Below are positions 893 to 16,576 of a stretch of DNA of 45,897 nt, one piece after another (position 1 is the first letter of the stretch; every line of letters starts with the position of its first letter). The DNA comes from a virus. The translations under genes and the position numbers were made by a program. Under the pieces are notes generated by a model, which ran no database searches, was not told where the DNA came from, and saw only the letters and a program-made list of their open reading frames with translations. The DNA is taken from positions 1 to 45,897 of IMG/VR virus record IMGVR_UViG_3300042303_000215. One strand, given 5' to 3'.

Positions 893-921
893 ATCATGCC
901 GTTAAGGTTCCGGTTCTGCAG
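893..921 (-). promoter_or_regulatory. Repeated phage promoter/operator, copy 1
   Basis: On the minus strand the 16-mer CTGCAGAACCGGAACC (906-921) is followed after 7 bp by CATGAT (893-898). The same 16-mer with the same 7-bp spacing precedes TATGCT at 4080, TATGAT at 9524 and TATGGT at 16553. CTGCAG therefore occupies the -35 position, 17 bp from the -10-like hexamer. This copy points toward the KilA-N gene. Confidence 0.6.
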
Positions 922-1253
922 GGTCTGCTCGCCATGGGCAGGACCGCTTCAATCGGCAGCACCGTGAGCTTGGCGTAGGCATCAAGCGACCGCTGGCTGC
1001 AGAGGAACTTGCGGCAGGGATGAGCGTTGGCCACCAGGGCCGCGACGTGGCGAGGGCAGGCTGCCCACGCGTCTTACGGTGCCGTAATGCGGCGTAATGC
1101 CGAGATCCCTGTCCCTGACTGGCCTATTACGATATTACATCTATTACAAGAAAAAGATATTTATTAGAGAGAGAGGCCATATCGAAAGGAGCCCCTAGGG
1201 GGATCAGGGGGGGCTCTCTTAAGGGGGTATTCCGGAGCGAAATGGCGTATGAA
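922..1253. other. Gene-free region with origin-like repeats
   Basis: No credible gene is seen between the KilA-N control region and the 3' end of the primase operon. Within it, 1074-1147 holds a palindrome TTACGG-TG-CCGTAA (about 1074-1087), two GTAATG hexamers 10 bp apart (1084 and 1094), and three direct TATTAC copies (1125, 1133, 1142). An AT-rich stretch at about 1125-1168 follows, in otherwise GC-rich DNA. Repeats in both orientations next to an AT-rich tract, beside a primase/helicase gene, suggest a replication origin; this is inference from layout. Further on, GAGCCCC (1189-1195) and GGGGCTC (1210-1216) can pair as a hairpin of unknown function. Confidence 0.4.
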
Positions 1254-1288
1254 CGTAAGAAAAGCCCAAACCGACTGCGCCGCAGTCG
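1254..1288 (-). terminator. Rho-independent terminator of the primase operon
   Basis: The palindrome CGACTGC-GCC-GCAGTCG (1272-1288) gives a 7-bp stem with a 3-base loop. On the minus strand it is followed by GTTTGGGCTTTTCTT, a T-rich though interrupted tract. It lies 39 bp past the stop codon of the primase gene, the expected place for an operon-ending terminator. Confidence 0.55.
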
Positions 1289-1327
1289 ATCTGAGCATTA
1301 CGGGCCCCGAAATGCCGCCGTCAGAAC

Positions 1328-3841
1328 TTACGAAATGGCCAGGTCTTCGTCCTGGATGGGCACCAAGGTGCAGCGCTTGCTGCCAACACCAGCGAAATGG
1401 GTCGGCTTGGTGGGGGTGGCGGCCCCGGTGATCCGTCGCAGTGCTGAGCGGTGCGCGCCGCTGCTCCAGGGGGTGGCTCTCAGCAGCTGATCAAGCTGCG
1501 CGTTGCTGTTGGCGATGGCCAGCTGGCAGCAGTCGGGGTGGTCGCCATCGGGCAGCTTCTCGCCGGCCCGGAACACCTTCATGCCATAGCGGCCAAGGAT
1601 GGGCACCAGCTCAGCCCATGGGGTGCGTGCTAGGGGCTGCTGGGTGGCTACGGCGCCGACCATCTCACCGAGGGATGCATCTAGGCCGCCGCCAAACCGG
1701 ACGATCTGTTGCAGAATCGTGTCGCGGCATTTGATCTCATCAGCGTCGCTGTCGTCGGCCTGCTGGTGGTTCCAGTCCATCTGGTCGATCCACTGCTGGG
1801 CCTGCTCAAGATCAAGCTCACAACCGCCGCCGGCCTCCAGGGACCAGGCGCCAGCGAGCAGGGTGCCGTGCTGATCGCCGAAGCGCTGGCCGAACTTCCG
1901 GCCCAGGGCCTGCGCCAGCACCTTGGCATTCTTGACGATGGTGGGCAGGTTGTTGAGGGTGCGAGCGATCAGCGCGCGGCCGTTTTCGATGGTGGAGACG
2001 GAGAGGATCTCGCGCTCAAAGTCGAGCCACTCGTTTTCATCAAAGTGGCCTTTGCGGAGTGCCAGGACGCAGAACCGGTCAATGTCGGCCTTCTGGATCA
2101 GCGAGACATTGATGGAAGAGACGCAGAACATGGAGCGGATCTCGAAGGCGTTGGTTCCGCCGCCGGGGGTGCCCTTGTAGATCTTGCCGCCCTCTGAGCT
2201 GGCGATCCGCGCCAGGGCCAGGACGTTCTGGACGATCTGTTTGTCCTTGGCTTCGTTCTGCTCGAACTCATCGAAGACCACCGGGATGGCATCCGACTTG
2301 AGGGTGCCGCGCAGGCCGGCCTCTGTGGTGCCCCCGGTGGCGGACTGGAGTACACCACCCATGAGCGGGCGCATGAAGGTCTTGAGGACCGTGGTCTTGC
2401 CGGTACCGGCCCCGCCAGTGATCCAGATATGGGGGCGCCAGTTCAGGCTGCCGCAGACGGGCGCCAGGATCAGCCAGCCGAGCAGGAAATGGGCTGAGAC
2501 AGGCATTTCCCACTTGAAGCGCTCAGCGATGTGGCGCAGCTGCATGGCAGCGTCATCGCCGAGGGGCTCAGCGCCAGGGCCGTCTAGGTGCCGTGCCTGC
2601 TCGTAGAAGAAACGGGTTGGCGGTGGGTTGTGAACGGAATGGGGCTGGCGGTCAACAATGAGCCGATCGCCGAGATGAAACACGACGCGGCCATCATCAA
2701 GCCAGGCACCACGGCCGCGGATGCGGTCCGGGTCGAACACGCCAGCGGCGGCCTGATCGCGAAACAGCCTGCTGGTGGCCGCCAGCCAGTTGACGCCTTC
2801 CTTGCTGGGGTGGACCGATTCCCAGTAGGGAATCTCCGCCAGCTCAAGCAGGTTGGTGGCGGTGTGAGAGCCGCGGGTGATTTTCGTCACCTGCCCTGTG
2901 GAGCGTGGCAGGTAGAAGTAGGTGCCGCTGTCAAACCCCAGGCACACAAACGGCGCATTACGCGGCGGCTCCGGTGCGGGTGCTGCAGGCTTGGGTTCCG
3001 GCCCCGGCGGCAGCTTAATAGCTTTGCCCGATGCCTGCACGGCCTTGGCGGCCTTGGCTGGCGTCCAGCCTTCGGCGAGGGCATCAGCGAGATCCCAGCC
3101 CTGCGGAAGCGAGTCGGGCGGATTGACGACCACCACGGTGCAGCTCAGCCCGAGCAGGATGCGGGCGAGGGTGGCGGCAGCCTTGCGGCCCACGTCGTCG
3201 GCGTCAGGCCAGATGGTGACGGAGCGTCCGCGCAGGGAGCTCCAGTCGGCGTGCTGCACGTTGCTGGTGCCGCCGGGCCAGGTGACGGCCGCGTGATCGG
3301 GGAACAGCTGGGCAGCGGCATCGATAGATGGCTCACCCTCGGCGATCATCACCGGCGCATCGGCTCGGCGCCGGGCCCAGTACAGCGGCCTCGGTTTCGG
3401 CGGGGACTTCCAGGCCCAGGCGTTGCCAGTCCAGGTGAGGGGGCGAACCTTCTTGCCCTTCACTGGATCGGGGAAGCGGCAGACGATGAAATCGTCGGTG
3501 TAGGTCCAGAACCGCTCGGCGCCGGCCGTGGGCGCTGGTGGCCGTGGGCGACTGGAGGCGATCCCGAGGTGTGCCTCGACCCGGCGGCAGGCGTCCTTGA
3601 ACTCCCAGCCGGTCACCCTGGTGAGCAGGTCGATGCCAGACCCGCCACCACCTTGGTGATCCTTGCCGCCGCACTGATTGCAGAACCAGCCACCAGGGCC
3701 GTCGTCGCGGTCCCAGCGGTAGCGATCGGTGCCGCCGCAGGCGGGGCACGGCTGGTGTTTGTCGGTGAGCTGCTCAGGCGTCAGGCCGCCAAGCTCCATC
3801 AGCAGCCGAGGCCAGCTGCCGTCCGCTGCGTCGATTGCCAT
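1328..3841 (-). CDS. Phage replicative primase/helicase (zinc ribbon, Toprim-like, DUF927-type ATPase)
   Basis: 837 residues. The N-terminus has a primase zinc ribbon with C32-x2-C35 (CPACGGTDRYRWD) and C54-x2-C57. A Toprim-like segment follows at about 155-225, with VMIAEGEPSIDAA and VTIWPDADDVGRKAA. The C-terminal half is a P-loop ATPase with Walker A GGAGTGKTT near 475-483 and Walker B PVVFDEFE near 520-527, of the DUF927/phage helicase kind. Such proteins prime and unwind DNA at the phage replication fork. It is the second gene of a minus-strand operon, 3 bp behind the ribbon-helix-helix gene, and ends just before a terminator and the origin-like region, which supports a role in replication initiation. 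Confidence 0.9.
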   Translation of the reverse strand: MAIDAADGSWPRLLMELGGLTPEQLTDKHQPCPACGGTDRYRWDRDDGPGGWFCNQCGGKDHQGGGGSGIDLLTRVTGWEFKDACRRVEAHLGIASSRPRPPAPTAGAERFWTYTDDFIVCRFPDPVKGKKVRPLTWTGNAWAWKSPPKPRPLYWARRRADAPVMIAEGEPSIDAAAQLFPDHAAVTWPGGTSNVQHADWSSLRGRSVTIWPDADDVGRKAAATLARILLGLSCTVVVVNPPDSLPQGWDLADALAEGWTPAKAAKAVQASGKAIKLPPGPEPKPAAPAPEPPRNAPFVCLGFDSGTYFYLPRSTGQVTKITRGSHTATNLLELAEIPYWESVHPSKEGVNWLAATSRLFRDQAAAGVFDPDRIRGRGAWLDDGRVVFHLGDRLIVDRQPHSVHNPPPTRFFYEQARHLDGPGAEPLGDDAAMQLRHIAERFKWEMPVSAHFLLGWLILAPVCGSLNWRPHIWITGGAGTGKTTVLKTFMRPLMGGVLQSATGGTTEAGLRGTLKSDAIPVVFDEFEQNEAKDKQIVQNVLALARIASSEGGKIYKGTPGGGTNAFEIRSMFCVSSINVSLIQKADIDRFCVLALRKGHFDENEWLDFEREILSVSTIENGRALIARTLNNLPTIVKNAKVLAQALGRKFGQRFGDQHGTLLAGAWSLEAGGGCELDLEQAQQWIDQMDWNHQQADDSDADEIKCRDTILQQIVRFGGGLDASLGEMVGAVATQQPLARTPWAELVPILGRYGMKVFRAGEKLPDGDHPDCCQLAIANSNAQLDQLLRATPWSSGAHRSALRRITGAATPTKPTHFAGVGSKRCTLVPIQDEDLAIS

Positions 3842-3844
3842 GAA

Positions 3845-4024
3845 TCAGGCCGCAGGCTGGGTTTGGCCTTGACGGCGGATGTCGTCAACGATCAGGCGCC
3901 GGATGACCGCGACGCGTGTGCATCCGTAGTAGTCGGCCTGAGCGTCGAGGTGTTCGACGTGTTCCCCGGAGAGCTCGATGGTGATGCAGCGGCGACCTTC
4001 GGCGGTGGGCCAGGTGGGGGGCAT
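3845..4024 (-). CDS. Small ribbon-helix-helix DNA-binding protein
   Basis: 59 residues from the ATG at 4022-4024. Residues ~13-50 follow the ribbon-helix-helix pattern: a short strand (CITIELSGEHVEHLD) followed by two helices ending in VAVIRRLIVDDIRR. Proteins of this CopG/Arc-like class bind operators as dimers and often repress their own operon. An upstream in-frame ATG at 4048 would add 8 residues but falls inside the predicted -10 element, so the shorter form is preferred. The gene leads the primase operon. A palindrome GATGGG-ttct-CCCATC (4034-4049) overlaps the predicted -10 and start of transcription and could be its own operator (inference). Confidence 0.65.
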   Translation of the reverse strand: MPPTWPTAEGRRCITIELSGEHVEHLDAQADYYGCTRVAVIRRLIVDDIRRQGQTQPAA

Positions 4025-4033
4025 GGAGTGTTT

Positions 4034-4075
4034 GATGGGTTCTCCCATCCTAGGGGCTGCAGAACCGGAACCCAA
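4034..4075 (-). promoter_or_regulatory. Promoter and operator of the RHH-primase operon
   Basis: On the minus strand TTGGGT (4070-4075) and TAGGAT (4047-4052) are separated by 17 bp, a reasonable sigma-70 promoter. The palindrome GATGGG-ttct-CCCATC (4034-4049) overlaps the -10. The spacer of this promoter contains most of the 16-mer of the oppositely directed promoter at 4057, so a factor bound there could affect both directions. Confidence 0.45.
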
Positions 4076-4085
4076 GGGGTATGCT
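4057..4085 (+). promoter_or_regulatory. Repeated phage promoter/operator, copy 2
   Basis: CTGCAGAACCGGAACC (4057-4072) is followed after 7 bp by TATGCT (4080-4085). It would start the rightward operon that encodes the helicase and methyltransferase. The roughly 200 bases between it and the first convincing start codon (4293) show no good gene and form a long leader. Confidence 0.6.
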
Positions 4086-4292
4086 GTGAAGGCCACCACG
4101 AACTGCGCTCCCTGATGACGCCAGCCACTACCCGGACCAGGTGGTGGGTGCTGCCGGTGCTGAGAACACCGATGGCCTGGCCTCTCTCTGTCTACGGGTC
4201 CGATCCAGGACGGCCGGCGGCTCCAGCCAGTAATCAGGCACTGGGCCGGCCGCAAGCGCAGGGTGGTGGCACCCATTCACTCACTACGCGTC

Positions 4293-4691
4293 ATGGGACA
4301 AGCAAGGCTCAGGCGACAACAACTGGGATCCCTTTACGGCACGCCTGAGGGAAGCAACAAGAAGCTAAAGGCGTACATCGGAGGCGATCAGCATGAGTTG
4401 GATCAAAAAGCTCTGAAGGAGATCAATGCCGCCAAAGGCAGTGGCCAGCCGGTAATTCTTATCGGCACCGAAGGTGCTCGGTCGATTGCCTCTGCTGCTG
4501 GGTTGGTTTGGCTGCACGAAATCCCCGAAGGCGAGCCGATCCCTGAATCATTTGCATGGGACCCTGTAATTGCTGAAAAGATAGGAATCATGCCGCCGCC
4601 GGCTCATGCGTCTGGCGGCGTAGTGATTCTTGCGGCCGGATCGATCAAGGGGCTTGAAGGATTCCTTTTGGATGGTTTTGCGCAGCCATGA
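4293..4691 (+). CDS. Conserved-looking hypothetical protein
   Basis: 132 residues from ATG 4293; a GTG at 4263 would add ten poorly protein-like residues. The N-terminus is basic (MGQARLRRQQLG). The middle carries a hydrophobic strand pattern (QPVILIGTEGARSIASAAG) and the end a second one (GGVVILAAGSIKGLEGFL), suggesting a compact alpha/beta fold. There is no signal peptide, membrane segment or zinc motif. I do not recognise the family. It is the first gene of the rightward early operon, and its stop overlaps the next start as ATGA (4688-4691), so it is translated together with the following small gene and the helicase. Confidence 0.7.
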   Translation: MGQARLRRQQLGSLYGTPEGSNKKLKAYIGGDQHELDQKALKEINAAKGSGQPVILIGTEGARSIASAAGLVWLHEIPEGEPIPESFAWDPVIAEKIGIMPPPAHASGGVVILAAGSIKGLEGFLLDGFAQP

Positions 4692-4858
4692 CCACCTCCA
4701 CCCTCCTCCCCTACACCGTCGTAGCGCTGCGTGACGACCGCCCACCGCAACGCATCGGCGTGATGGCCTGGTCACGCGCTGATGCGATCCGCACTGCGCA
4801 GGAGTTGTTCCCAGCGTGGCGGGTGTCGGCCGTGCTGCTGGAGGGCCAGTGGGAATAA
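4688..4858 (+). CDS. Small hypothetical protein upstream of helicase
   Basis: 56 residues, beginning MTTSTLLPYTVVALRDD and ending LLEGQWE. It is sandwiched between an ATGA overlap with the previous gene and a 10-bp overlap with the helicase GTG start at 4849, the pattern of a translationally coupled operon. The sequence reads as a small strand-helix-strand protein with no recognised motif. Function unknown; its fixed place before the helicase hints at a partner or coupling role, which is inference. Confidence 0.65.
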   Translation: MTTSTLLPYTVVALRDDRPPQRIGVMAWSRADAIRTAQELFPAWRVSAVLLEGQWE

Positions 4859-6231
4859 CGCTTCGGCCTTACCAGCTCAAAGCCGTCGCCGAGATCCGCC
4901 AGGCGTACCAGGCCAGCCACCGCTCCGTGTTGTTTGTGCTGCCCACCGGTGGCGGTAAAACCGTCTTGTTCAGCCACATCACCCGCGAAACGGCCGCCCG
5001 CGGCAACAGGGTGTGCATCCTGGTTCATCGCGCCGAACTGCTCAGCCAGGCCAGCGCCAGCCTGGAGGCCCTGGGTGTGCCACATGGCCTGATCGCTGCG
5101 AATCGCTCGATGGACCTGAGCCGCCCGGTGCAGGTGGCATCGGTGCAGACCCTCGCTCGCAGGCTGCACCGAATCCCGCCGGAGTTCTTCAACCTGCTGG
5201 TGATCGATGAGGCCCACCACAGCAACGCCGGAACCTGGGCGAAGGTGCTGGCGCACTGCGCCAAGGCGAGGGTGCTGGGTGTGACTGCAACCCCGATCCG
5301 TTGCGATGGTCGCGGCCTGGGTGAGTGGTATAGCCACATGGTGATGGGCCCTACCCCGGCCGAACTCACCGCCGCTGGATTCCTGGCACCGGCGCGAGTG
5401 CTGGCCCCACCGATCGGATTCGACACCAGCGGTCTGCGCAAGCGGATGGGCGACTTTGATCTGAGCCAGGCGGCCACCAGCCTGCAAGCGGGCCAGGCGA
5501 TGGGTGACTGCCTGTCGCATTACCGCCGGTATCTGGACGGCCAGACAGCGATCGCGTTCTGCTGCAGCGTGGCGCACGCCGAAGCGGTGGCTCGACTGTT
5601 CGCCAGCAACGGCGTAGCTGCGGCCTCGATCGATGGAACGATGGACAGCGTCTGGCGGCAAAACCTGCTGTCTCGCCTGGCGTGTGGCGATCTGAAGGTG
5701 CTCACCAGCTGTGCCCTGATTGGCGAAGGCGTGGACGTGCCCAGCGTGGCGGGCTGCATCCTGCTGCGGCCGACCCAGAGCGTGAGCCTGCACCTGCAGA
5801 TGATCGGCCGCTGCCTCAGGCCCCAGCCGGGCAAGCAGGCGGTGATCCTCGATCACGTGGGGAACGTGGTGCGGCTGGGCCACCACCTTGAGGAACGGGA
5901 ATGGACGCTGGAGGGCACACCAAAGAAGGAGCGCGACAAGGCCCCCTCGGTCAAGGTCTGCCCCCAGTGTTTCGCCGCGATGCCATCAGCGAAACAGATC
6001 TGCCCCGACTGCGGCCATGAGTTCGCGCCGGAGCGGCGCGACCTGGTGCATGTGGAGGGTGAGCTTGTGGAAGTGCAGCGCCGTGAGGCGAAGCGTGAGC
6101 AAGCGGAAGCCACCACGCTGGAGCAGCTGATCGACGTTGGGAAACGCCGGGGGATGAAACATCCGCGAGCGTGGGCCCGGCACGTGATGGCAGCCAGGCA
6201 GGCGAAGGGGCATTGGGGGAAGGTGGCGTGA
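4849..6231 (+). CDS. SF2 DEAH-box helicase with C-terminal zinc site
   Basis: 460 residues from GTG 4849, chosen because GGAGGG lies 3 bp upstream and homology-like sequence begins at once (LRPYQLKAV). A GTG at 4816 is the alternative. Motif I PTGGGKT is at ~32-38, the DEAH box (VIDEAHH) at ~119-124, motif III VTATP at ~146-150, and a helicase C-terminal lobe with IGEGVDVPS and QMIGRCLRPQPGK follows. Near the end CPQC...CPDC (~371-390) makes a probable zinc ribbon. This is the superfamily 2 helicase type common in phage replication modules, where it remodels DNA at forks or recombination intermediates. It overlaps the methyltransferase start by GTGA. Confidence 0.9.
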   Translation: MGITLRPYQLKAVAEIRQAYQASHRSVLFVLPTGGGKTVLFSHITRETAARGNRVCILVHRAELLSQASASLEALGVPHGLIAANRSMDLSRPVQVASVQTLARRLHRIPPEFFNLLVIDEAHHSNAGTWAKVLAHCAKARVLGVTATPIRCDGRGLGEWYSHMVMGPTPAELTAAGFLAPARVLAPPIGFDTSGLRKRMGDFDLSQAATSLQAGQAMGDCLSHYRRYLDGQTAIAFCCSVAHAEAVARLFASNGVAAASIDGTMDSVWRQNLLSRLACGDLKVLTSCALIGEGVDVPSVAGCILLRPTQSVSLHLQMIGRCLRPQPGKQAVILDHVGNVVRLGHHLEEREWTLEGTPKKERDKAPSVKVCPQCFAAMPSAKQICPDCGHEFAPERRDLVHVEGELVEVQRREAKREQAEATTLEQLIDVGKRRGMKHPRAWARHVMAARQAKGHWGKVA

Positions 6232-7169: not shown

Positions 7170-7624
7170 TCGACCCCACCTACCTCGCCACCATCCGCAG
7201 CCAGCTGCGCTGTGAGCTAGTGGTCGTGCTGGTCCAGCTGGAGCAGCTGTGCCCCGGCTGGTGGGCAGACCTGGCTGAGCTGGCTGAGCAGCTGGGAACG
7301 GACCGGGCGACGCTGAACCGGGCGCTGCAGAAGCTGGAACGCCTGGGGCTCCTGCGTCGTGAACGGATCAGCAACACCGGCGGCAACTGGATCTGGTGGG
7401 TGAAGCGGGCCGAAGGTGATCAGCCAAGGCCAGAGGACGAGCCCAGCTGGAGGCTGAGAGACACCCATCGCGGAATCATCGTGCAGCTGCCAATTAGCAA
7501 GCGCTGGGAATGGGCAGAACGGCACGATATTCCAAGGGCAACGATGCGGAGTTTCCTAAATGGCCATCACCGAACCCTCGGGAATCGTTGGCAAGTTGTT
7601 CGTAACCCATGGGAGGAAAAATGA
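7166..7624 (+). CDS. Winged-helix DNA-binding protein
   Basis: 152 residues from GTG 7166, overlapping the methyltransferase stop as GTGA. Residues ~25-75 form a winged helix-turn-helix of the MarR/replication-initiator kind: WWADLAELAEQLGTDRATLN, then LQKLERLGLLRRERI and a wing ending NWIWWV. The C-terminal half has a second helical pattern, RHDIPRATMRSFLNGHHRTLG, that may add another DNA-contacting element. It probably acts as a phage regulator or initiator; the target is not known. Its stop overlaps the next ATG (7621) as ATGA. Confidence 0.7.
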   Translation: MIDPTYLATIRSQLRCELVVVLVQLEQLCPGWWADLAELAEQLGTDRATLNRALQKLERLGLLRRERISNTGGNWIWWVKRAEGDQPRPEDEPSWRLRDTHRGIIVQLPISKRWEWAERHDIPRATMRSFLNGHHRTLGNRWQVVRNPWEEK

Positions 7625-8088
7625 ACTGTCCGATGTGCTCTAGCAGCCAGACAAAGGTCATAGAGACCAGGCAATGCCACAACGGCACAAGGCGGCAGCG
7701 CTTGCAGTGCCACGACTGCGAGCACCGCTGGACCCTGTGGCATGGTGAGCGGCCGAAGCGTGGCCGCGTTGATGGAGCTGCAGCAGTGAAGCGAATCCAG
7801 CCACGACTGACAGAGGAAGAAATCCGATTTATTCTGACTACCCAGCAGAGCGGCTATACGTTAGGGCCTGAACTAGGCCGTTCCAAGGAAGCAATCTCAG
7901 CTATCAGGCGTGGGATTACCTACAAGGATGTCTGCCCTGATTTGCCACGGTGGAATCATGGAAGCTGTAAGGCCTCATGCCTGAACTGCATCCACTGGGA
8001 TGAACGGTGCGGCATGGGGTTCCCTGATCCCGCCATCGAGGGGCTCGGGTTTGCGGCGGATTGCTCCGTGTATCAGGCAGCGGGGTGA
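7621..8088 (+). CDS. NrdR-like zinc ribbon and HTH protein
   Basis: 155 residues from ATG 7621, preceded by a strong GGGAGG; an ATG at 7609 lies upstream of that site. The N-terminus copies the zinc ribbon of the nucleotide-reductase repressor NrdR: C3-x2-C6, VIETR, a basic RRQR stretch, and C30-x2-C33 followed by HRW. The NrdR ATP-cone is absent. Instead residues ~60-100 look like a helix-turn-helix (LTEEEIRFILTTQQSGYTLG then SKEAISAIRRG). The tail is cysteine-rich (CKASCLNCIHW...CGMGF...CSVY), probably a second metal site. A DNA-binding regulator is likely; the resemblance to NrdR covers only the ribbon. Confidence 0.72.
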   Translation: MNCPMCSSSQTKVIETRQCHNGTRRQRLQCHDCEHRWTLWHGERPKRGRVDGAAAVKRIQPRLTEEEIRFILTTQQSGYTLGPELGRSKEAISAIRRGITYKDVCPDLPRWNHGSCKASCLNCIHWDERCGMGFPDPAIEGLGFAADCSVYQAAG

Positions 8089-8124: not shown

Positions 8125-8523
8125 ATGAGCGAGCACGAGATCCAGCAGCGCATTCTCGTGAGCTGTGGTTCCGGTTCTGCCAGGCTGTGGCGCAACAACG
8201 TCGGCACCGGCTGGGCTGGGCCCGCCACCAAGGTCACGCCCGGCAACATCCGCGCGGTGGCAGCAGCGATCCGGCCTGGTGATGTGGTGGTGCGCCAGGG
8301 CCGCCCCCTCCATGCGGGTCTGTGCGTCGGATCGTCCGATCTGATCGGCTACCGGCAGGTGGGTGGCCTGGCGCAGTTCGTGGCGCTGGAGGTGAAATCA
8401 GCTACCGGTAGGGCGTCGGTGGAACAGCAGCGGTTCATCGACCACATCTGCAGCGCTGGGGGCTGCGGGGCCGTGGTGCGCAGCGTGGAGGATGCAGATT
8501 CGGTTCTCCGGACCGGTACCTAG
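8125..8523 (+). CDS. VRR-NUC domain endonuclease
   Basis: 132 residues, essentially one PD-(D/E)xK nuclease domain of the VRR-NUC class. Visible active-site elements are the N-terminal helix SEHEIQQRIL with E3/E5, GSSD with D72, the E89-V-K91 motif, and Q101/Q102 on the helix after it, ending in GCGAVVRS. Stand-alone phage VRR-NUC proteins are thought to act as structure-specific or Holliday-junction nucleases in replication and recombination, which fits its place before recT and ssb. The coding sequence contains an exact 14-base copy of the phage regulatory repeat at 8167-8180. Confidence 0.88.
   Translation: MSEHEIQQRILVSCGSGSARLWRNNVGTGWAGPATKVTPGNIRAVAAAIRPGDVVVRQGRPLHAGLCVGSSDLIGYRQVGGLAQFVALEVKSATGRASVEQQRFIDHICSAGGCGAVVRSVEDADSVLRTGT
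8167..8180 (-). repeat. Intragenic 14-base copy of the phage regulatory repeat
   Basis: GGTTCCGGTTCTGC, the reverse complement of GCAGAACCGGAACC, lies inside the VRR-NUC gene near its 5' end. It matches 14 of the 16 bases shared by the four intergenic sites but has no -10-like hexamer at the 7-bp position. It may be a binding site that is not a promoter, comparable in idea to mycobacteriophage stoperators, or chance conservation. Confidence 0.45.
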
Positions 8524-8527
8524 AAAA

Positions 8528-8544
8528 GGAACCGCTAAGGTTCC
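8528..8544. promoter_or_regulatory. Inverted repeat GGAACC-N5-GGTTCC before the 8548 gene
   Basis: GGAACC (8528-8533) and GGTTCC (8539-8544) form a perfect inverted repeat that ends 3 bp before the ATG at 8548. GGAACC is the last hexamer of the 16-mer repeat. Read on the minus strand the site is CCGGAACC plus TTAGCGG, close to the 16561 copy (TAAGCGG). It would overlap the ribosome-binding region of the 8548 gene, so bound protein could block translation start or transcription there. Confidence 0.45.
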
Positions 8545-8547
8545 GGC

Positions 8548-9288
8548 ATGAAACAAGAGCATTCTCAGATCCGCATAGAGCGCGGCGGCCAGCGCCTTGC
8601 CGCTGCCGTTCGCTACTGGCTGGCCCACAGCCTCAGCCAGGACAAGCTCTGCTCCATCGTCCACTGGGCCTACGGCGAAACCTCCGGGTTCGACGGCGGT
8701 ACCTTCTCCCGCCTGTCGAACGGCAATCAGCAGCGCGGCCCTGGGATCCGGCACCTCGATGCGCTGGCGGAGGCGAACCGCGCCATCTGGACCTGGCAAA
8801 CCCAAGGCGAAGCTGCCGCCATCAAAGAGTTCGGGCTCCATTCCAACCACGGTGTACGGCCGGAGTGGCTCAACGCCACCATCTGGCTGCCAAAACCTGA
8901 CGACGCCACCCAGCCGCTCGACCTCGGCGATCTGGTCAACGTGTTGGTGGGTCGCCTTGAGCTGCCCTATGTGGCGCCGCGGCTGCAGGCTCGTGAGGCG
9001 AAGGTCGCCGGTGAACGCCTCCTGGAGCTGCTGAACGAGCTAGCGCAGGAGCGGGGCTGGAAACCGCTTGAGGCTGTGCAGAAATACCTAGCCGCCTACC
9101 CAGGTGGTACGCGAGTGCGTGTGGCACGGCTGAAGGGCGTGCTCACCGGCGAGTCCTACACCCAGCCAGAGCTGGAGCTGGAGATGGCGGCGCTGGCGGA
9201 GATGATCCGCCAGGTGCGTGGCATCGAGCGGTTTACCCCAGCTGATCTGCAGGCTGAACTGTTGTCTGATCGCCGCCTGAGGTCCTGA
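8548..9288 (+). CDS. Conserved hypothetical protein, possible DNA-binding
   Basis: 246 residues. The first ~75 residues hold the most conserved-looking part (CSIVHWAYGETSGFDGGTF, then LSNGNQQRGPGIRHLDAL), which I recall from hypothetical proteins of picocyanobacteria and their phages. The rest is mostly helical with charged heptads (ELLNELAQERGWKPLEAVQKY). No catalytic motif is recognised. An inverted repeat of the phage half-site GGAACC lies directly before its start codon, as expected for an autoregulated DNA-binding protein, so it is a candidate for the factor that recognises the repeated sites. That role is inference. Confidence 0.75.
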   Translation: MKQEHSQIRIERGGQRLAAAVRYWLAHSLSQDKLCSIVHWAYGETSGFDGGTFSRLSNGNQQRGPGIRHLDALAEANRAIWTWQTQGEAAAIKEFGLHSNHGVRPEWLNATIWLPKPDDATQPLDLGDLVNVLVGRLELPYVAPRLQAREAKVAGERLLELLNELAQERGWKPLEAVQKYLAAYPGGTRVRVARLKGVLTGESYTQPELELEMAALAEMIRQVRGIERFTPADLQAELLSDRRLRS

Positions 9289-9415: not shown

Positions 9416-9442
9416 GGGAGCCGTGGGGGGGAAAGGGCAACC

Positions 9443-9467
9443 GTTTTAGTACAGACGTACCAAAAAC
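9443..9467. promoter_or_regulatory. Palindromic operator upstream of recT
   Basis: GTTTTAGTAC (9443-9452), AGAC, then GTACCAAAAAC (9457-9467) form an inverted repeat matching at 8 of the first 10 positions outward from the centre. It is AT-rich in GC-rich surroundings and lies 34 bp upstream of the CTGCAG promoter at 9501. It differs in sequence from the TATGGGA operators near 690, so a different regulator is implied. Confidence 0.45.
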
Positions 9468-9500
9468 CGACTGTGCGTGCTGCAGTCTGATGCACCATAG

Positions 9501-9529
9501 CTGCAGAACCGGAACCCTCGGGGTATGAT
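9501..9529 (+). promoter_or_regulatory. Repeated phage promoter/operator, copy 3
   Basis: CTGCAGAACCGGAACC (9501-9516) is followed after 7 bp by TATGAT (9524-9529), the best -10 match of the four copies. Transcription would begin near 9536, giving a leader of under 20 bases before the recT-like start at 9553. Confidence 0.62.
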
Positions 9530-9552
9530 TCGGGTATCAGCAGCCCATTCCT

Positions 9553-10386
9553 ATGGCACCGCCCACCAGCGCTGCGCTGGCCACTACCACACCTCCAGGC
9601 CTCAGCCTGCAGGTCCAGTCCGTTGACGACCTCGCCCGCCTGGCCCGAGTGTTCGCCGCGTCTGGCCTGTTCGGCCGCGCCGGCAACCAAGAGACCCAGA
9701 TCGCCGAGTGCGCCATCCGATTGATGGCTGGCATGGAGGCGGGGTTCTCGCCGTTCGCCAGCGCCACCGGCGTTCACATCATCAACGGCCGCCCCGCGTT
9801 CTCCAGCAACCTGCTGGCCCAGGCTGTGCGCCGGCATCCGGTGTACGACTACCGGGTGCTGGAGAAGTCCGGCACCACCTGCCGCATCCGATTCCTGGCC
9901 CATGGCGAGGTGCTGGGCGAGGAGACGTTCACCATCGAGATGGCTGAGCGTGCCGGTCTGTTGAAGAACCCGACCTGGAAGTCGTACCCCGAGGCCATGC
10001 TGTTCTCGCGGGCGCTCACCGCCGGGATGCGCACCCATTGCCCTGACGCCCTTGGAGGGCACACGGCCTACACCCCCGACGAGATCGGCGGGGAGGTGGT
10101 GCCCGTCACCGTGGCAGAGGAACCTGTCGAGCCGCAGGCTGATCCGCTCCAGCAGGCTCAGCAGGTCTGCAACGCTGCTGGCCTCACCGCCGATGGCGTG
10201 ATCGCGTTCTGCCTGCTGGTCAGCAACGGGAAGATCGCCGCCCTGGCTGATCTCCCCCAGCAGACCCTCGACCGGATCATCCGCCAAGGGATCTCCGCCG
10301 AAACGGTCGCGAAGTGCAACGGCTCCGAGGGCGACCCCGAGCCTGCCGACGACCCCGACGACCTGCCCGCCGCCTGGTCCGTGTGA
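9553..10386 (+). CDS. recT: RecT-like single-strand annealing recombinase
   Basis: 277 residues. The core follows the phage RecT pattern: an early helix IAECAIRLMAGMEAGFSPFA, then VHIINGRPAFSSNLLAQAV, EMAERAGLLKNPTWKSYPEA, LFSRALTAGMRTHCPD, and the closing YTPDEIGGEVV. These proteins bind single-stranded DNA and anneal complementary strands during phage replication-coupled recombination. The C-terminal ~80 residues are a separate helical tail (DPLQQAQQVCNAAG onward) ending in an acidic, proline-rich segment. It is followed by ssb, the usual pairing. No classical RecE/exonuclease partner is seen; the VRR-NUC at 8125 is the nearest nuclease. Confidence 0.83.
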   Translation: MAPPTSAALATTTPPGLSLQVQSVDDLARLARVFAASGLFGRAGNQETQIAECAIRLMAGMEAGFSPFASATGVHIINGRPAFSSNLLAQAVRRHPVYDYRVLEKSGTTCRIRFLAHGEVLGEETFTIEMAERAGLLKNPTWKSYPEAMLFSRALTAGMRTHCPDALGGHTAYTPDEIGGEVVPVTVAEEPVEPQADPLQQAQQVCNAAGLTADGVIAFCLLVSNGKIAALADLPQQTLDRIIRQGISAETVAKCNGSEGDPEPADDPDDLPAAWSV

Positions 10387-10401
10387 CTTGGTGGGCTAAG
10401 A

Positions 10402-10411
10402 AACCGGAACC
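10402..10411 (+). repeat. Degenerate regulatory repeat before ssb
   Basis: AACCGGAACC, the inner part of the 16-mer, lies 16 bp upstream of the ssb start codon. CTGCAG is degenerate (CTAAGA) and there is no -10-like hexamer at the expected spacing. It may serve as an operator only, between recT and ssb. Confidence 0.4.
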
Positions 10412-10427
10412 TTAACCCTCACTCTCC

Positions 10428-10877: not shown

Positions 10878-10879
10878 TC

Positions 10880-11593: not shown

Positions 11594-11736
11594 GCCGCCT
11601 AGCAGCCCTGATCCTGGTGCTGTGGGCGCTGGTAGGTGTGGGCGAACAGATCAAACCAATTCCCGAGAGCAACCATGAGCGAACAGCACAAAGCAACGCC
11701 CGAGGAGTGGGCCACAATCGAAGAGTTGGGCCGTGA
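11590..11736 (+). CDS. Possible small membrane peptide
   Basis: 48 residues, MSRLAALILVLWALVGVGEQ then a polar tail. The first ~18 residues are a signal peptide or single membrane helix. The start overlaps the previous stop as ATGA, but the 3' 62 bases overlap the better supported gene at 11675 in another frame, so the polar tail may be chance reading. Confidence 0.4.
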   Translation: MSRLAALILVLWALVGVGEQIKPIPESNHERTAQSNARGVGHNRRVGP

Positions 11737-12133
11737 CAACTTCTACGCTCCGAGCTGCATTCTCGAACTCCGGGCCAGGGTCGAGGCGCTTGAGGCCACG
11801 CAGCATGCGCACGTTGACCTGTCTGGCGTACCCGAGAGCGAACGACAGCAGATGCTGGATTCGTTGCGCACGCCGGCCAGGATTGAGCTGCTGCCATTGG
11901 AGCAAGATCGCCCCCAAGTCGTTACTCCAGATGCCCCCGCCAGCTCGCTGGTGGAGCGGGTGGCTGAGGTGTTCCTGACCGGCACATTCAACGCTGACGA
12001 CCCGGTTGGGGCCCGCGCCGCGATCCGCGAGGTGGCGGCGTGGTTGGTCGAGAAGTATTCAGATACCGACGAGTGCCTCGAGTCTCTGATCGGCGTTGTT
12101 GTTGGCGAGCTCCAAGCGGAGACCGAGGAATGA
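11675..12133 (+). CDS. Hypothetical protein of a picocyanobacterial phage family
   Basis: 152 residues from ATG 11675. The opening (ATPEEWATIEE, then PSCILELRARVEALEA) and the segment SSLVERVAEVF...ARAAIREVAAWL match wording I recall from Synechococcus/Cyanobium hypothetical proteins, which is the best host clue in the window. The N-terminal part is probably a short coiled coil and the C-terminus a helical domain. Function unknown. Its stop overlaps the next start as ATGA (12130). Confidence 0.8.
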   Translation: MSEQHKATPEEWATIEELGRDNFYAPSCILELRARVEALEATQHAHVDLSGVPESERQQMLDSLRTPARIELLPLEQDRPQVVTPDAPASSLVERVAEVFLTGTFNADDPVGARAAIREVAAWLVEKYSDTDECLESLIGVVVGELQAETEE

Positions 12134-12312
12134 AAATGCACGTTGTTATGAAGGAGCGTCAAAGCGCGATTATGCGTTTCCCAGGGCTGCCGCATGAGAT
12201 CTATGCAACGAAAAAGGAAGCGTGGGATAGGGCTGAAGAGTTGAACCGCAAGTCAACTACTAACCATTACTGGGTTGAGCCCGCACGTTTTGTCAAACAC
12301 ACACACAAATGA
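12130..12312 (+). CDS. Small basic hypothetical protein
   Basis: 60 residues from ATG 12130, with a second ATG at 12136. MKMHVVMKERQSAIMRFPG is followed by a charged helix (YATKKEAWDRAEELNRKS) and a basic end (ARFVKHTHK). The strand-helix-strand outline resembles small DUF-type proteins, but no family is recognised. It is coupled on both sides by ATGA overlaps. Its base composition is more AT-rich than its neighbours, hinting at a separate origin. Confidence 0.65.
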   Translation: MKMHVVMKERQSAIMRFPGLPHEIYATKKEAWDRAEELNRKSTTNHYWVEPARFVKHTHK

Positions 12313-12653
12313 GGAAAACTTCTGTGACTAATTCAAATGCTAAACTCTCCCCACCACCGGAAATGGTCAAGCAGTTGTACAAATGCGCAACGGCAGCTGG
12401 GCTGGACTACCTACAAGAGATTGCTGACCGCTCCGCCCAATGGGGCGCTGATCAAGAACTGGAGGCGTGCTGTGAGTTGCTGGAGCAGAAAGGGTGGGAT
12501 CCAACCTGGATTCCTGTGCTCCGCGCCGCCCGACGCCCCAAGCCGCCGAGCTTGAAGGAGCAGGCGCTTGCTGAAATTGACGCTCTGGAAAGCATGGGCG
12601 TTTGCAACTCCGGTACCATCCGCCGCGCAATCGAGTCTCTGCCCAATGACTGA
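12309..12653 (+). CDS. Hypothetical protein of a picocyanobacterial phage family
   Basis: 114 residues. The centre AAQWGADQELEACCELLEQ-like stretch (here SAQWGADQELEACCELLE) and LRAARRPKPPSLKEQALAEI are wordings I recall from cyanobacterial hypothetical proteins, where they occur with various N-terminal parts. It is mostly helical and shows no catalytic motif. The start overlaps the previous stop as ATGA and the end overlaps the next gene by 8 bases. Confidence 0.78.
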   Translation: MRKTSVTNSNAKLSPPPEMVKQLYKCATAAGLDYLQEIADRSAQWGADQELEACCELLEQKGWDPTWIPVLRAARRPKPPSLKEQALAEIDALESMGVCNSGTIRRAIESLPND

Positions 12654-12891
12654 CCCCACTCTCTCCCCCGCCGCGCAGGCGGTGCTGGATGCCACATATC
12701 GAGAAATGGACTACGCCCCGCGTCGCCACGTTCAGTGGGCCGCCGCCGCCGCCCTTCGCGCTGCTGCGGATCAGGTGGTGCCGGAAGGAGGCGTCTTTCT
12801 CTCAACTGCCAGCGCCGCCAGAATCCGCGCCCAATTCCTCGCCATCGCCGCCGAGCTGGCTGGCACCCCCACTACCCCCGCTGAATCATGA
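12646..12891 (+). CDS. Small helical hypothetical protein
   Basis: 81 residues from ATG 12646, which overlaps the previous gene; an upstream in-frame ATG at 12568 lies deep inside that gene and is rejected. The sequence is alanine-rich and helical (LSPAAQAVLDATYREMD, then WAAAAALRAAADQVV). It resembles the variable small proteins that accompany the neighbouring families in picocyanobacterial phages. Function unknown. Its stop overlaps the next ATG as ATGA. Confidence 0.7.
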   Translation: MTDPTLSPAAQAVLDATYREMDYAPRRHVQWAAAAALRAAADQVVPEGGVFLSTASAARIRAQFLAIAAELAGTPTTPAES

Positions 12892-13436
12892 CCACCCCCA
12901 CCGACTGGCGTGCGCTGTGCGCTGATCTAACCGACGCACTTGATACCTGGCTCATGGCTCACCACCACGGCGGCGTTCCACCACAAGATGGCGTAGACGC
13001 CAAGCTAGTTCTTCGCGCCCGCACCGCCCTGGCCCAGCCCGAGCCGCAGGGGCCGCAGCAGGAGGCCGCCCGCAGAGTTCTTGAGTATTTAGAGCTGCGC
13101 AAGACTTCAAAGGATCTAGATCCAGAGGTGATTGGCCAGGCGTGCCGTGGATCAGAGTTCCCCTATGTACGGAAGCTGACCGTCAGCGACCTAGAAGCCC
13201 TCGCCCGCTGGGGCCGCCCCGCCGTCGAGCCGGTGCCCGCCGCTGAGCGGCCTTGGGAGCGGGAAGGGTGGTGTGATGCGCATGGAAGGTGCTGGTGGGG
13301 CAGGCCATCGGAGGAACTGTGTAACTCCGATTGGTTCCTGGCAACCCGCTCAGAAGTGGAAGAGTTTTGCGAAGACTGTCTTCCTACCGTTTCGCTCCCC
13401 CACTGGGCGCTGCCGGTGCCGGAGCGGGAACCATGA
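12888..13436 (+). CDS. Hypothetical protein with conserved WCDxxGRCWW motif
   Basis: 182 residues. The N-terminus TDWRALCADLTDAL and the C-terminus, with EGWCDAHGRCWWG, a DWFLAT stretch and LPHWALPVPE, match a modular family I recall from picocyanobacteria and their phages, in which the middle varies. The middle here (RVLEYLELRKTSKDLDPEV) is helical. A fold that binds a small ligand or metal is possible from the C/H/W pattern, but no function is established. It closes the small-gene block and overlaps the deaminase-like gene by ATGA. Confidence 0.75.
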   Translation: MTTPTDWRALCADLTDALDTWLMAHHHGGVPPQDGVDAKLVLRARTALAQPEPQGPQQEAARRVLEYLELRKTSKDLDPEVIGQACRGSEFPYVRKLTVSDLEALARWGRPAVEPVPAAERPWEREGWCDAHGRCWWGRPSEELCNSDWFLATRSEVEEFCEDCLPTVSLPHWALPVPEREP

Positions 13437-13945
13437 GCCCGTTGCCCGATTGGCAGATCACCAGCCTGTGCCAGGCGGGCATGGTGGCGCCGTTCCTGCC
13501 GGAGCTCGTCAACCCCGCCAGCCTGGATGTGAGGCTCGGTGACGCGCTGCTCATTGAATCAGCCGAATCCCCTCAGCTGGTGCCCTACCCCCTCGGGCGC
13601 CACACCGCAGAAAATCCGTACTGGCTGGTGCCGGGGCAGTTCGTGCTAGGGCATACGCTGGAATACGTGCGGGTGCCGAACCACCTCTCGGTTTGGCTCT
13701 CCCTGAAATCCAGCCGTGCGCGTGAGGCGATCGACCACCTGCTGGCGGGCTGGATCGATCCGGGGTTCCATGGGGTGATCACGCTGGAGCTGGTGAACAG
13801 CCGCCAGCTCCACAGGGTGCCGATCTGGCCGGGGATGAGGATCGGCCAGCTGACGTTCCTGGAGATGGCTGCAGAGCCGCGGCGAGGGTATGCGGAAACT
13901 GGGCGGTACCACCTGTCGGAAACGGTGGAGCCGAGCCGGGGGTAG
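13433..13945 (+). CDS. dcd: dCTP deaminase/dUTPase-family nucleotide enzyme
   Basis: 170 residues from ATG 13433. Family features are NPASLDVRLGDALL (27-40), the SSRAR loop (93-97), and GWIDPGFHGVITLELVN (106-122) with E119 at the place of the catalytic glutamate, then PGMRIGQLTF. Family members deaminate dCTP to dUTP or hydrolyse dUTP, shaping the dNTP pool for phage DNA synthesis. The presence of the glutamate and the SSRAR loop points to deaminase activity, though bifunctional forms exist. It is the last gene of the rightward early chain. Confidence 0.87.
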   Translation: MSPLPDWQITSLCQAGMVAPFLPELVNPASLDVRLGDALLIESAESPQLVPYPLGRHTAENPYWLVPGQFVLGHTLEYVRVPNHLSVWLSLKSSRAREAIDHLLAGWIDPGFHGVITLELVNSRQLHRVPIWPGMRIGQLTFLEMAAEPRRGYAETGRYHLSETVEPSRG

Positions 13946-13952
13946 GGCGCCC

Positions 13953-13970
13953 CTGATCCGCTAGGATCGG
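13953..13970. promoter_or_regulatory. Short inverted repeat before the membrane-HTH gene
   Basis: GATCC-GCTA-GGATC lies about 55 bp before ATG 14023. It overlaps a TAGGAT hexamer that could act as a -10 element on the plus strand, but no convincing -35 element is seen. It could be an operator or a weak hairpin. Confidence 0.3.
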
Positions 13971-14022
13971 TGGGTCATCAGCAGGCCGAGTGCGCCGCTG
14001 GTGTTCCACCGCATTTCCCATC

Positions 14023-14211
14023 ATGTCGACCACTTGCCTCGCGGCATGGGCTGTCGCCCTGCTGCTGCTTCCCGTTGTGGTGCTGCTCTGGGCCACGGAG
14101 ACCCGCCAGCAACGCGCCCGCCGCTGGCGCAGGGACGGCCTCACGCAGCAGGCCATAGCCGACCGCCTTGGCTGCAGCCGGAGCACCGTACGGCGGCTCT
14201 TGGCGGCCTGA
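14023..14211 (+). CDS. Membrane-anchored helix-turn-helix peptide
   Basis: 62 residues from ATG 14023. A single membrane helix (about 5-24, LAAWAVALLLLPVVVLLWAT) is followed by a basic linker (RQQRARRWRR) and a resolvase/homeodomain-like HTH at 38-61 (GLTQQAIADRLGCSRSTVRR). I recall similar membrane-plus-HTH peptides from picocyanobacteria; no function is known to me. The topology would put the HTH on the cytoplasmic side. It lies just before the attP-like site and the integrase. No clear Shine-Dalgarno is visible, and an upstream in-frame ATG at 13990 adds an unconvincing extension. Confidence 0.65.
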   Translation: MSTTCLAAWAVALLLLPVVVLLWATETRQQRARRWRRDGLTQQAIADRLGCSRSTVRRLLAA

Positions 14212-14220
14212 CCACTGGGC

Positions 14221-14268
14221 GTAGTGCATAAGGACACTTACGCTTGCTGTAGATTTCTTATGCACTAC
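14221..14268. other. attP: Probable attP site of the serine integrase
   Basis: GTAGTGCATAAG (14221-14232) and CTTATGCACTAC (14257-14268) form a perfect 12-bp inverted repeat flanking 24 bp, 48 bp in all. It ends 14 bp before the integrase start. Large serine integrases use attP sites of about 50 bp with symmetrical arms, usually beside the int gene, so size, symmetry and place all fit. The central bases 14244-14245 are TT, a non-palindromic dinucleotide as such enzymes require. The same DNA may also hold the int promoter. Confidence 0.65.
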
Positions 14269-14282
14269 ACGTCGGAAAGACC

Positions 14283-15557
14283 GTGAAGATCGGCTACGCA
14301 CGGGTTTCCACCGACAAGGCCGAGCAGGACATCAGCATTGACGCCCAGGTGCAGCAGCTTGCGGCGGCCGGCTGTGACCGGGTGATCCGTGAGCGTGGCA
14401 CCGCCTTTCGCGAGGACGCCCGCCGCCCTGGCTGGGAGGAGCTGCAGGCGTTGGTGGCCTCCGGCAAGGTCCGCGAAGTGGTGGCGATCAGCCAGAGCCG
14501 CCTGAGCCGACGCGGCGAGGAGTTGCCGTTTCTGCGAATGTGCGCACGGCGCGGCGTTGCGGTTCGCTTCCTAGACGGCACGCCCGCCGATCTCACTGAC
14601 CCAGCCGGCCGTTTGCTGACCGGCGTGCTCTCCACCGTGAATGAGGTGGACAGCATGATCAAGTCGATCAACGTGAAGAACGGAATCCGCCGACGCAAAG
14701 CGGAAGGCCACTACGCCTGCGGGCGTGTTCCGTTTGGCTACATCTACGACGGTTCGCAGGTGGTGCCACACCCAAACGAGTTCAACCAAGCGCGAGAACT
14801 ATGGGATCAACTGGCGGCCAATGAATACATGCTGGGCCGCACGATTCGCCAGCACCGTCTGGAATGGAGCATCCCAGGGCTAGGCAAGTGGATCAATAAT
14901 CCGATCTTGCGCGGCGTGGTGAATGGTGAAGCAGGAAAGGTAACGGCGCTCATTACTTGGGACGAATGGCACCGTGCTCGACGACTGCTGGATCAGCGCA
15001 AAGCGGTAAAGGTGCGCAGCCGGGCCATGCCCCGCATGTTTACCGGCCTGATGAAGTGTGGATCCTGCGGTAAGCGGATGCACTACATTTTCCGAGCCAA
15101 GAAATCTCGCCTGCGCTGCAGCAACAGCATCTGCAACTGGTACGGGCGCGGTTTAGCGGAATGGAAGGTGCGCGACCATGTGATTAATGCCCTGCGGCAA
15201 GGTGCTGACCTATTGGGCCAGGTTGCTGCAGCCGCGGCCGCACCTGCAGTGAACGCCGAGACTGAGCAACGCCAGCAGCAGCTAGATCAGCTACGGGCAT
15301 TGCAGGACCAGGGGGTGGCGGGACTGGGGGAGTCGATCGAGCGGCTAGAGGCAATGCTGACAGTTGCCCCGCCTGCGTCAGGGCCTGACTGGCGCGGGCT
15401 GGCTGAGGTGTTCATGCGATCGGGCGCCCTTGAAGCCGCCACCGATGAAGAACTCCGGGTGCTCGCGCTGGAGTATGTCGCGGAGATTGTCTACGTCGGG
15501 GATCCCGGTCGTGTCGAAATCCGGGTTCGCCAAGGCCCGAGCTGCGATACGGCGTAA
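14283..15557 (+). CDS. int: Large serine integrase
   Basis: 424 residues from GTG 14283 with GGAAAG just upstream. The N-terminal resolvase domain (1-~145) has GYARVSTDKAEQD with nucleophile S9, and SQSRLSRRGEELPF. The recombinase domain follows (GRVPFGYIYDG onward), with a zinc ribbon C259-x2-C262 (CGSCGKRMHY) and two later cysteines near 280-285. A coiled-coil segment at ~320-360 (TEQRQQQLDQLRALQDQG) would mediate synapsis. It integrates the phage by recombining attP with a host attB without host factors. No excisionase/recombination directionality factor is recognised; one of the small genes nearby may serve. Confidence 0.93.
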   Translation: MKIGYARVSTDKAEQDISIDAQVQQLAAAGCDRVIRERGTAFREDARRPGWEELQALVASGKVREVVAISQSRLSRRGEELPFLRMCARRGVAVRFLDGTPADLTDPAGRLLTGVLSTVNEVDSMIKSINVKNGIRRRKAEGHYACGRVPFGYIYDGSQVVPHPNEFNQARELWDQLAANEYMLGRTIRQHRLEWSIPGLGKWINNPILRGVVNGEAGKVTALITWDEWHRARRLLDQRKAVKVRSRAMPRMFTGLMKCGSCGKRMHYIFRAKKSRLRCSNSICNWYGRGLAEWKVRDHVINALRQGADLLGQVAAAAAAPAVNAETEQRQQQLDQLRALQDQGVAGLGESIERLEAMLTVAPPASGPDWRGLAEVFMRSGALEAATDEELRVLALEYVAEIVYVGDPGRVEIRVRQGPSCDTA

Positions 15558-15607
15558 CGCTTCACGCCCGGTCATTGCGGGATCCTTTGAAAAACGGTGC
15601 AGATCAT

Positions 15608-15967
15608 TCACACAAGCTCCTTACCGGTCATGGATGGCAGCGACCAACCCCGCGCGTCGGGGCATTGGGTGGCGTTCTCCAGGTCGGCGGCGATAGCGCG
15701 GCACTGCTTGGCCAGGTCGACTGCCAGCTGTCGATCCAGCGGTGAGCAGTCATCCCAGGCGTTATCACCCACCGCGCGTGCGGTCACCTGCGCGGCATCG
15801 ATCAGGCCCACCAGCAGCGGCAGCAGCGGCTGATTGCGGGCGCCCACGTCGGGCAGCCGAATCAGGCTGTCCACGTGCTTGGGCAGCGCCTGGCGGGCGG
15901 CCTGGAGGATCAGGTCGGAGAGTGCGCCGTCGCACTCCAGAGCAGGGCTGAGGTTCTGGTTTTGCAT
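15608..15967 (-). CDS. Hypothetical protein downstream of Gp157
   Basis: 119 residues, MQNQNLSPALECDGALSDL to the C-terminal MTGKELV. It is largely helical (DRQLAVDLAKQCRAIAADLEN) with no recognised motif. It begins 9 bp after the Gp157 stop and must share its transcript from the promoter at 16576-16548. It ends tail-to-tail with the integrase, 50 bp away. A nuclease-inhibition or recombination accessory role is possible by association only. Confidence 0.65.
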   Translation of the reverse strand: MQNQNLSPALECDGALSDLILQAARQALPKHVDSLIRLPDVGARNQPLLPLLVGLIDAAQVTARAVGDNAWDDCSPLDRQLAVDLAKQCRAIAADLENATQCPDARGWSLPSMTGKELV

Positions 15968-15976
15968 GGTTGAGGA

Positions 15977-16525
15977 TCAGGCGATTTTCCAGCTACGGCG
16001 CTCGACCAGCTCACAGCCTTTGATCTGAGCGCCTAGGGCCAGGGCAGCCTTGATGGCGGTTTTGTCGGCGGTGCAGGTGGTCTTCACCCGCTGGAACTGA
16101 TCCGGCAGATCAGTCGGTGCAATATCTGCATCCAGCTCAACGCTGGTCACCTTCCGGCTGGTGAGCGTGTGCTCAGGCAGCTCCCATTTCGTGCGGTCGG
16201 GATCCACCCGCCCCAGCGCTGTCACCAGCCGATCCTGCAGGGCATCAGCCTGCTGCTCAGCAGCGGCGGCCAGATCCTTCAGCCGCTGGGCGTGGGCCGC
16301 ACGGGTGATCGCTTGAGCGCGGAGGTGATCAATCACCCAGCACCAGGCATCAGCCTTGGCCTCAACAGCCTTGCGGTTGTCGGATTCAGCGCTGATCAGC
16401 GATTCGAGGGTGGCCGTGGCCTCGGCTACGGCGGCGGGATCGTCAGAGAACAGGTCAGCAGCGGCGGCGTCGATCTGCTGCTGCAGGCGCAGCGCGTCGC
16501 CGGTGAGCTCAAACAGGGATGCCAT
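15977..16525 (-). CDS. Siphovirus Gp157-family protein
   Basis: 182 residues from ATG 16525, preceded by GAGAGGGG; an in-frame upstream GTG is less likely. The layout is that of the Gp157 family: ASLFELTGDALRLQQQID at the start, a long coiled-coil helix (EAKADAWCWVIDHLRAQA, then RLKDLAAAAEQQADALQ), and a C-terminal beta part with RKVTSVELDADI, QRVKTTCTADKTAIK and ALALGAQIKGCELVE. Gp157 was described in a Streptococcus phage in relation to phage resistance and is often near recombination genes; its mechanism is unclear. The promoter of the repeated type lies only ~23 bp upstream. Confidence 0.85.
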   Translation of the reverse strand: MASLFELTGDALRLQQQIDAAAADLFSDDPAAVAEATATLESLISAESDNRKAVEAKADAWCWVIDHLRAQAITRAAHAQRLKDLAAAAEQQADALQDRLVTALGRVDPDRTKWELPEHTLTSRKVTSVELDADIAPTDLPDQFQRVKTTCTADKTAIKAALALGAQIKGCELVERRSWKIA

Positions 16526-16547
16526 GGCCCCTCTCGAATACCCGCCA

Positions 16548-16576
16548 ACCATACCGCTTAGGTTCCGGTTCTGCAG
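16548..16576 (-). promoter_or_regulatory. Repeated phage promoter/operator, copy 4
   Basis: On the minus strand CTGCAGAACCGGAACC (16561-16576) is followed after 7 bp by TATGGT (16548-16553), giving a short leader to the Gp157 start at 16525. The site lies between Gp157 and the divergent sigma-factor gene (start 16609). On the plus strand TACGCT (16578-16583) follows the repeat at once, so a divergent promoter may share it. Confidence 0.62.

Follow-up and report, generated by a model that had tools for sequence, protein, structure and literature searches.

A conserved 17-bp box at early-gene promoters of phages related to S-LBS1, a putative phage-specific promoter/operator element

Introduction

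Phages are known to use both dispersed operators and promoter classes of their own. In the MotA middle promoters of T4, as in promoters of phage sigma factors, a box lies at a fixed spacing upstream of a sigma-70-type -10. Among the small ribbon-helix-helix (RHH) regulators, Arc and Mnt of P22 act on one or two promoters, and the operators of Arc, Mnt and CopG are found in the -10/-35 region. Phage P1 carries 22 operators of the C1 repressor, which are asymmetric, dispersed, 17 bp long and share the consensus ATTGCTCTAATAAATTT (PMC8546580), and the repressor sites of cluster A mycobacteriophages (L5) are also dispersed and asymmetric (PMC9283540). In the case of S-LBS1, a freshwater Synechococcus phage, the main text of the genome paper reports an integrase, with no mention of a repressor and no shared promoter motif (PMC6157547).

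The DNA analysed here (hereafter the window) comprises one entire IMG/VR record of 45,897 nucleotides, IMGVR_UViG_3300042303_000215, from a relative of S-LBS1 (about 71% identity for recT and 79% for sigma). An earlier note had described a 16-mer repeated in four intergenic regions of this DNA, placed like a promoter, and had proposed that it marks either a class of promoters specific to the phage or a dispersed, asymmetric operator of the stoperator-like kind.

Results

The box in the window

The exact 16-mer CTGCAGAACCGGAACC was confirmed at 906-921 (-), 4057-4072 (+), 9501-9516 (+) and 16561-16576 (-). Each copy lies exactly 7 bp upstream of a -10-like hexamer (CATGAT, TATGCT, TATGAT and TATGGT, respectively), and its CTGCAG lies 17 bp from that hexamer, as had been reported. 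No TTGACA-like -35 was found at 17 bp, this position being occupied by the STGCRG of the box. After the start codons were re-read from the sequence (gp157 at 16525, sigma at about 16609, RHH at 4024 and a small ORF at 4115), all four copies fall between genes, which bears out the earlier description, and the leaders from the -10 hexamers to the start codons are short. With up to 3 mismatches, the 16-mer has 9 matches in the window, versus a mean of 0.65 and a maximum of 2 in shuffled windows.

The leftmost element (893..922, - strand) consists of the box CCTGCAGAACCGGAACC (906-922), seven bases and the -10 CATGAT (893-898). It faces an ORF at about 847-593 and the gene at 596, which runs leftwards to the contig end and encodes a KilA-N protein (Pfam). 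An orthologous site, GCTGCACAACCGGAACC-N7-TAGGAT, precedes the homologue of the 593 ORF in two relatives (G021 and G024). Just upstream of the KilA-N gene, the region 687-731 also bears two exact copies of TATGGGATTTCCC spaced 32 bp apart, an arrangement of low chance expectation; these repeats are possibly operators of another regulator.

The second box, GCTGCAGAACCGGAACC (4056-4072, +), is followed by the -10 TATGCT (4080-4085) and would form the rightward promoter of the helicase operon, whose first small ORF starts at 4115. At 3 bp from this box, on the opposite strand, lies TAGGAT (ATCCTA on the + strand, 4047..4052), the predicted promoter of a divergent gene (3845..4024, -) for a small RHH protein of 59 aa; a reverse -10 is also present in relatives. 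The third box (9500-9516, +) and its -10 TATGAT (9524-9529) form the predicted promoter of recT (ATG at 9553). The fourth (16561-16577, -), with the -10 TATGGT (16548-16553), is the predicted promoter of gp157 (ATG at 16525). The opposite strand carries TACGCT directly adjoining this box (16578..16583, +, 0 bp), the predicted promoter of the sigma gene (16609..17568, +; GTG at about 16609), which in relatives reads TATGAT or TATAGT at 0-2 bp from the box. The sigma gene encodes a phage sigma-70-family factor with regions 1.2-3 and a degenerate region 4. Two of the sites are thus bidirectional and lie between divergent promoters, a point missing from the earlier note.

Two further motifs occur upstream of recT. 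The sequence AGTACAGACGTACC at 9447-9462, with similar sequences before recT in several relatives, resembles the cyanobacterial LexA box, a hint that the recT operon may be under SOS control. A TGCAG/TGCA inverted motif at 9478-9497, represented in relatives by ATGCAG-N4/5-TGCAT, is a possible operator as well.

Less complete copies had also been indicated. The copy within the VRR-NUC gene is present (8167-8182, -, with GCAGAACCGGAACC), but it has no -10, and no such intragenic copy was seen in the scan of relatives. The partial copy reported before ssb was confirmed as a degraded box GCTAAGAAACCGGAACC without -10 in the recT-ssb gap (10395..10411, +), where six relatives (G001, G003, G007, G010, G014 and G063) bear a fuller box, again without -10. 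In contrast, the one assigned to the 8548 gene belongs to a different conserved element, GGAACCGCTA(A/C)GGTTC. This element (8529-8551) ends a few bases upstream of the 8548 start codon in many relatives; an RNA hairpin that covers the start is conceivable, as is a leaderless promoter (TAAGGT/TACGGT). In the late operon, in line with the earlier claim, no site scores with the full 30-bp profile described below.

Conservation in related phages

The same element was found in more than 40 related contigs as a 17-bp box with the consensus GGTGCAGATGCGGAACC, followed by N7 and TANNNT. The exact 16-mer is the window's own version of a conserved 17-bp form that starts with GGTGC and not CTGC. Longer genomes have 3-5 boxes each, and the genes concerned are conserved, namely gp157, recT, the helicase operon and a further early unit. 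This additional unit lies near the 11636/12888 genes and has a box in many relatives, but not in the window.

A 30-bp profile, for whose training only 23 sites of gp157 and the helicase unit were used, detected 89 sites of at least 15 bits in the scanned genomes versus 0 in shuffled genomes. The recT sites were retrieved although they were outside its training set, and in relatives the regions that precede recT, gp157 and the helicase unit visibly share an element. Counted gene by gene, 41 of 47 sigma genes have the box upstream, as do 23 of 29 RHH genes, 17 of 23 recT genes and 19 of 34 gp157 genes, and the same count gave none for primase, VRR, ssb, 12888 and others. Several contigs are fragments, from which a universal co-occurrence of the RHH gene and the box cannot be proved, and the genomes compared are not independent. 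G064 and G075, which were considered as near-complete phages lacking the RHH gene, were discarded as such, their contigs appearing to stop before that region.

The strict pattern matched 82 stretches in IMG/VR, versus 4 unrelated matches in 257 Gb of GTDB genomes from bacteria and archaea, and a host regulon of this sequence was rejected on the latter count. It was also asked whether the late genes share the early promoter, and this was rejected since several relatives carry a different element before the terminase genes. In G005, G011, G039, G066 and G070, the motif GCAACC-N6/7-TANGCT-GGTTGC-ATG precedes the gene for the terminase small subunit, in a layout that resembles the early box.

Geometry of the element

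When the box alone was used as query, TANNNT occurred 7 bp downstream in 84 cases, 8 bp in 6 and 6 bp in 2, the other distances being at background. The seven-base spacer ends in GG or GC. Its penultimate G falls at -14, a feature of extended -10 promoters. The box spans about -36 to -20, its left half lies 17 +/- 1 bp from the -10, and its most conserved part includes GGAACC at -25 to -20. Its dyad symmetry is weak (p=0.024), and a 6-bp tandem repeat is stronger. On the upstream side, a reverse -10 at 0-3 bp belongs to the sigma and RHH genes. At these two loci one box serves back-to-back promoters whose -10 hexamers are about 24-27 bp apart, presumably too close for two polymerases simultaneously. 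In G078 and G080 the box is inverted and faces sigma, and it thus behaves as a movable unit.

Evidence for a phage-encoded reader

Boxes of one phage differ by 4.24 of 17 positions, versus 6.67 for the same gene in different phages, and 0 of 5000 permutations reached this within-genome likeness (p=0.0002). Clades have their own versions of the box, such as TGCATCCGCA in G017, G018 and G025, GGAAGTGAA in G019, GGTATG in S-LBS1 and CGGTTTCACA in G027 and G030. This concerted drift within genomes, together with the absence of the box from hosts, implies a trans-acting phage factor; from these comparisons we infer that a phage-encoded DNA-binding protein, drifting with its sites, reads the box.

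By position and fold, the adjacent RHH protein is the first choice, with a likelihood a little short of even. Its gene is divergent from the box or a box variant in all 20 genomes examined. The AlphaFold model has a pLDDT of 87, the N-terminal strand being unassigned in the monomer model, and the Foldseek matches include CopG, Arc, MazE and NikR (probability up to 0.99, E-values 0.1-1), so the predicted structure supports an RHH fold. Its PHROG neighbours are transcriptional repressors (weak matches). The predicted DNA-facing strand residues, [C/T/A]-T-E, are nearly constant while the boxes vary, and no clear pattern linking these residues to box type was found among relatives.

Box distances were also compared with protein distances. 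Sigma gave r=0.50 and RHH r=0.29 (partial correlations 0.42 versus 0.03), values that are suggestive only, the sites and sequences being hand-curated from about 15 non-independent genomes. For the helicase, recT and ssb proteins the correlation is about zero, although boxes adjoin the first two genes.

Alternative readings

The sigma factor, the best of these correlates even at the distant recT site (r=0.60), offers a reading of its own. Host RNA polymerase would make sigma and RHH from the outward promoters, after which the phage sigma would fire the box promoters with STGCRG as its -35 element. The left half of the box has the usual -35/-10 spacing (17 +/- 1 bp), the sigma gene adjoins a box in 41 of 47 genomes, and region 4.2 lacks the residues aligned with R584, E585 and Q589, which read the -35 in E. 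coli RpoD. Against this, sigma does not normally contact -25 to -20, so GGAACC, in the most conserved part of the box, falls outside its usual contacts. In G078 and G080 a canonical box goes with a region 4.2 that is quite different; sigma region 4 correlates with the box's right half (r=0.55), but these two phages break the match. In G046 and G047 sigma is 63-65% identical while boxes are undetectable. Of the named candidates we place sigma second, after RHH, and consider it a rather improbable reader. In a bolder form, to which we give the same low credence, a sigma with a rewritten region 4.2, alone or with a spacer-bound RHH protein, would read a new composite, co-evolving promoter class (STGCRG at -35, GGAACC at -25 to -20, G-TANNNT), the divergent host-type promoters making sigma and RHH first. 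If true, two proteins would suffice for a compact switch from early to middle genes in cyanobacterial siphoviruses.

The implied phage factor might also be another regulator, such as the HTH/zinc-ribbon protein of 7609 or an unannotated small protein. We regard this as a genuine possibility, though on balance an unlikely one. Many of these phages encode HTH proteins akin to the 7609 product, but the family hardly correlates with the box (r 0.07-0.25), on which ground the 7609 protein itself was rejected, and its candidate recognition helix varies among phages with an identical box. The product of 8548, named earlier as a possible binder, is an unlikely reader, its gene being missing from many box-bearing phages. 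In the protein of 7609-8088, an NrdR-like zinc ribbon is joined to an HTH with a Cys-rich tail. The HTH/tail part is widespread among these phages, where it is often encoded close to gp157 instead of within the helicase operon.

That the boxes are stoperator-like roadblocks to elongation, i.e. asymmetric repressor sites across transcribed DNA, could be argued from the near-copy within VRR-NUC and from the boxes that several relatives carry, without a -10, between recT and ssb. However, almost all conserved sites are at a promoter, the ssb gap is the only conserved position within operons, and the VRR copy is unseen in relatives, which makes this form very improbable and leaves the earlier stoperator suggestion without support. 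Finally, a chance or mobile repeat without regulatory function might be read from the 16 matches of the exact 16-mer in IMG/VR, all of them in unrelated contexts and without a -10; this is refuted for practical purposes, as position, spacing and -10 are kept in dozens of relatives versus 0 in shuffles.

Discussion

The occurrence at the same genes, the rigid 7-bp spacing and the TANNNT in dozens of relatives strongly support the phage-specific promoter class proposed earlier. The alternative of an asymmetric dispersed operator survives in part, its stoperator form aside: an operator role of the same box is plausible from its place amid divergent promoters and from its concerted drift within genomes. 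As a whole, we moderately favour a phage-specific early-gene promoter/operator box, with the RHH protein as the likeliest reader, which would act through occupancy of the -35/spacer region. Judged from the genes concerned, the box probably co-ordinates the DNA-replication genes of these viruses.

In the favoured model, the box would span positions -36 to -20, approximately, in a sigma-70-type promoter whose extended -10 is located exactly 7 bp downstream, and the helicase, recT, gp157 and KilA-N early replication/recombination operons would be switched together by it. At two loci it would also cover the spacer of the RHH and sigma promoters. The outward promoters would first make RHH and sigma; the box would then be occupied in the -35/spacer region, shutting RHH's own promoter and that of sigma, and the occupied boxes would jointly determine how active the promoters of helicase, recT, gp157 and KilA-N are. 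The early operons would probably be repressed, in the prophage or late in infection. Repression is taken as the default mode by analogy with P1 C1; activation is also possible, since the rigid 7-bp spacing would fit an activator or a sigma contact equally well.

Gene timing or prophage silencing in picocyanobacterial siphoviruses appears undescribed. The box, with its divergent regulator and sigma, would provide a defined regulon and two named proteins, and the box also serves as a metagenome marker for such phages. What seems new is this sequence, its host group and the divergent arrangement, none of which was found in the literature searched by titles and abstracts.

Compared with the systems described above, T4 MotA middle promoters and phage sigma promoters share the fixed distance between a box and the sigma-70-type -10 that follows it, but here the box is 17 bp long and reaches -20. 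Like Arc, Mnt and CopG, a small RHH regulator with a supported fold lies beside its presumed site; four or five promoters are concerned here, against the one or two of Arc and Mnt, the sequence similarity is weak and RHH binding is presumed. The L5 stoperators, 13-mers with more than 20 copies per genome, many in promoter-less intergenic gaps and bound by a monomeric HTH repressor, are also dispersed asymmetric sites, whereas the sites here are tied to promoters, and promoter-less transcribed ones are confined to the recT-ssb gap of some relatives. The P1 C1 operators are alike in being largely asymmetric 17-bp sites dispersed at several lytic functions and at the regulator's own promoters. 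Near-identical sites at several promoters of one phage are likewise found here, four in the window and 3-5 in longer relatives. The differences are another sequence (GGTGCAGATGCGGAACC versus ATTGCTCTAATAAATTT), 3-5 sites instead of 22, a rigid 7 bp to the -10, and a reader that is here only a candidate. By this analogy, the box would be an element that works like the P1 C1 operators but stands outside that family.
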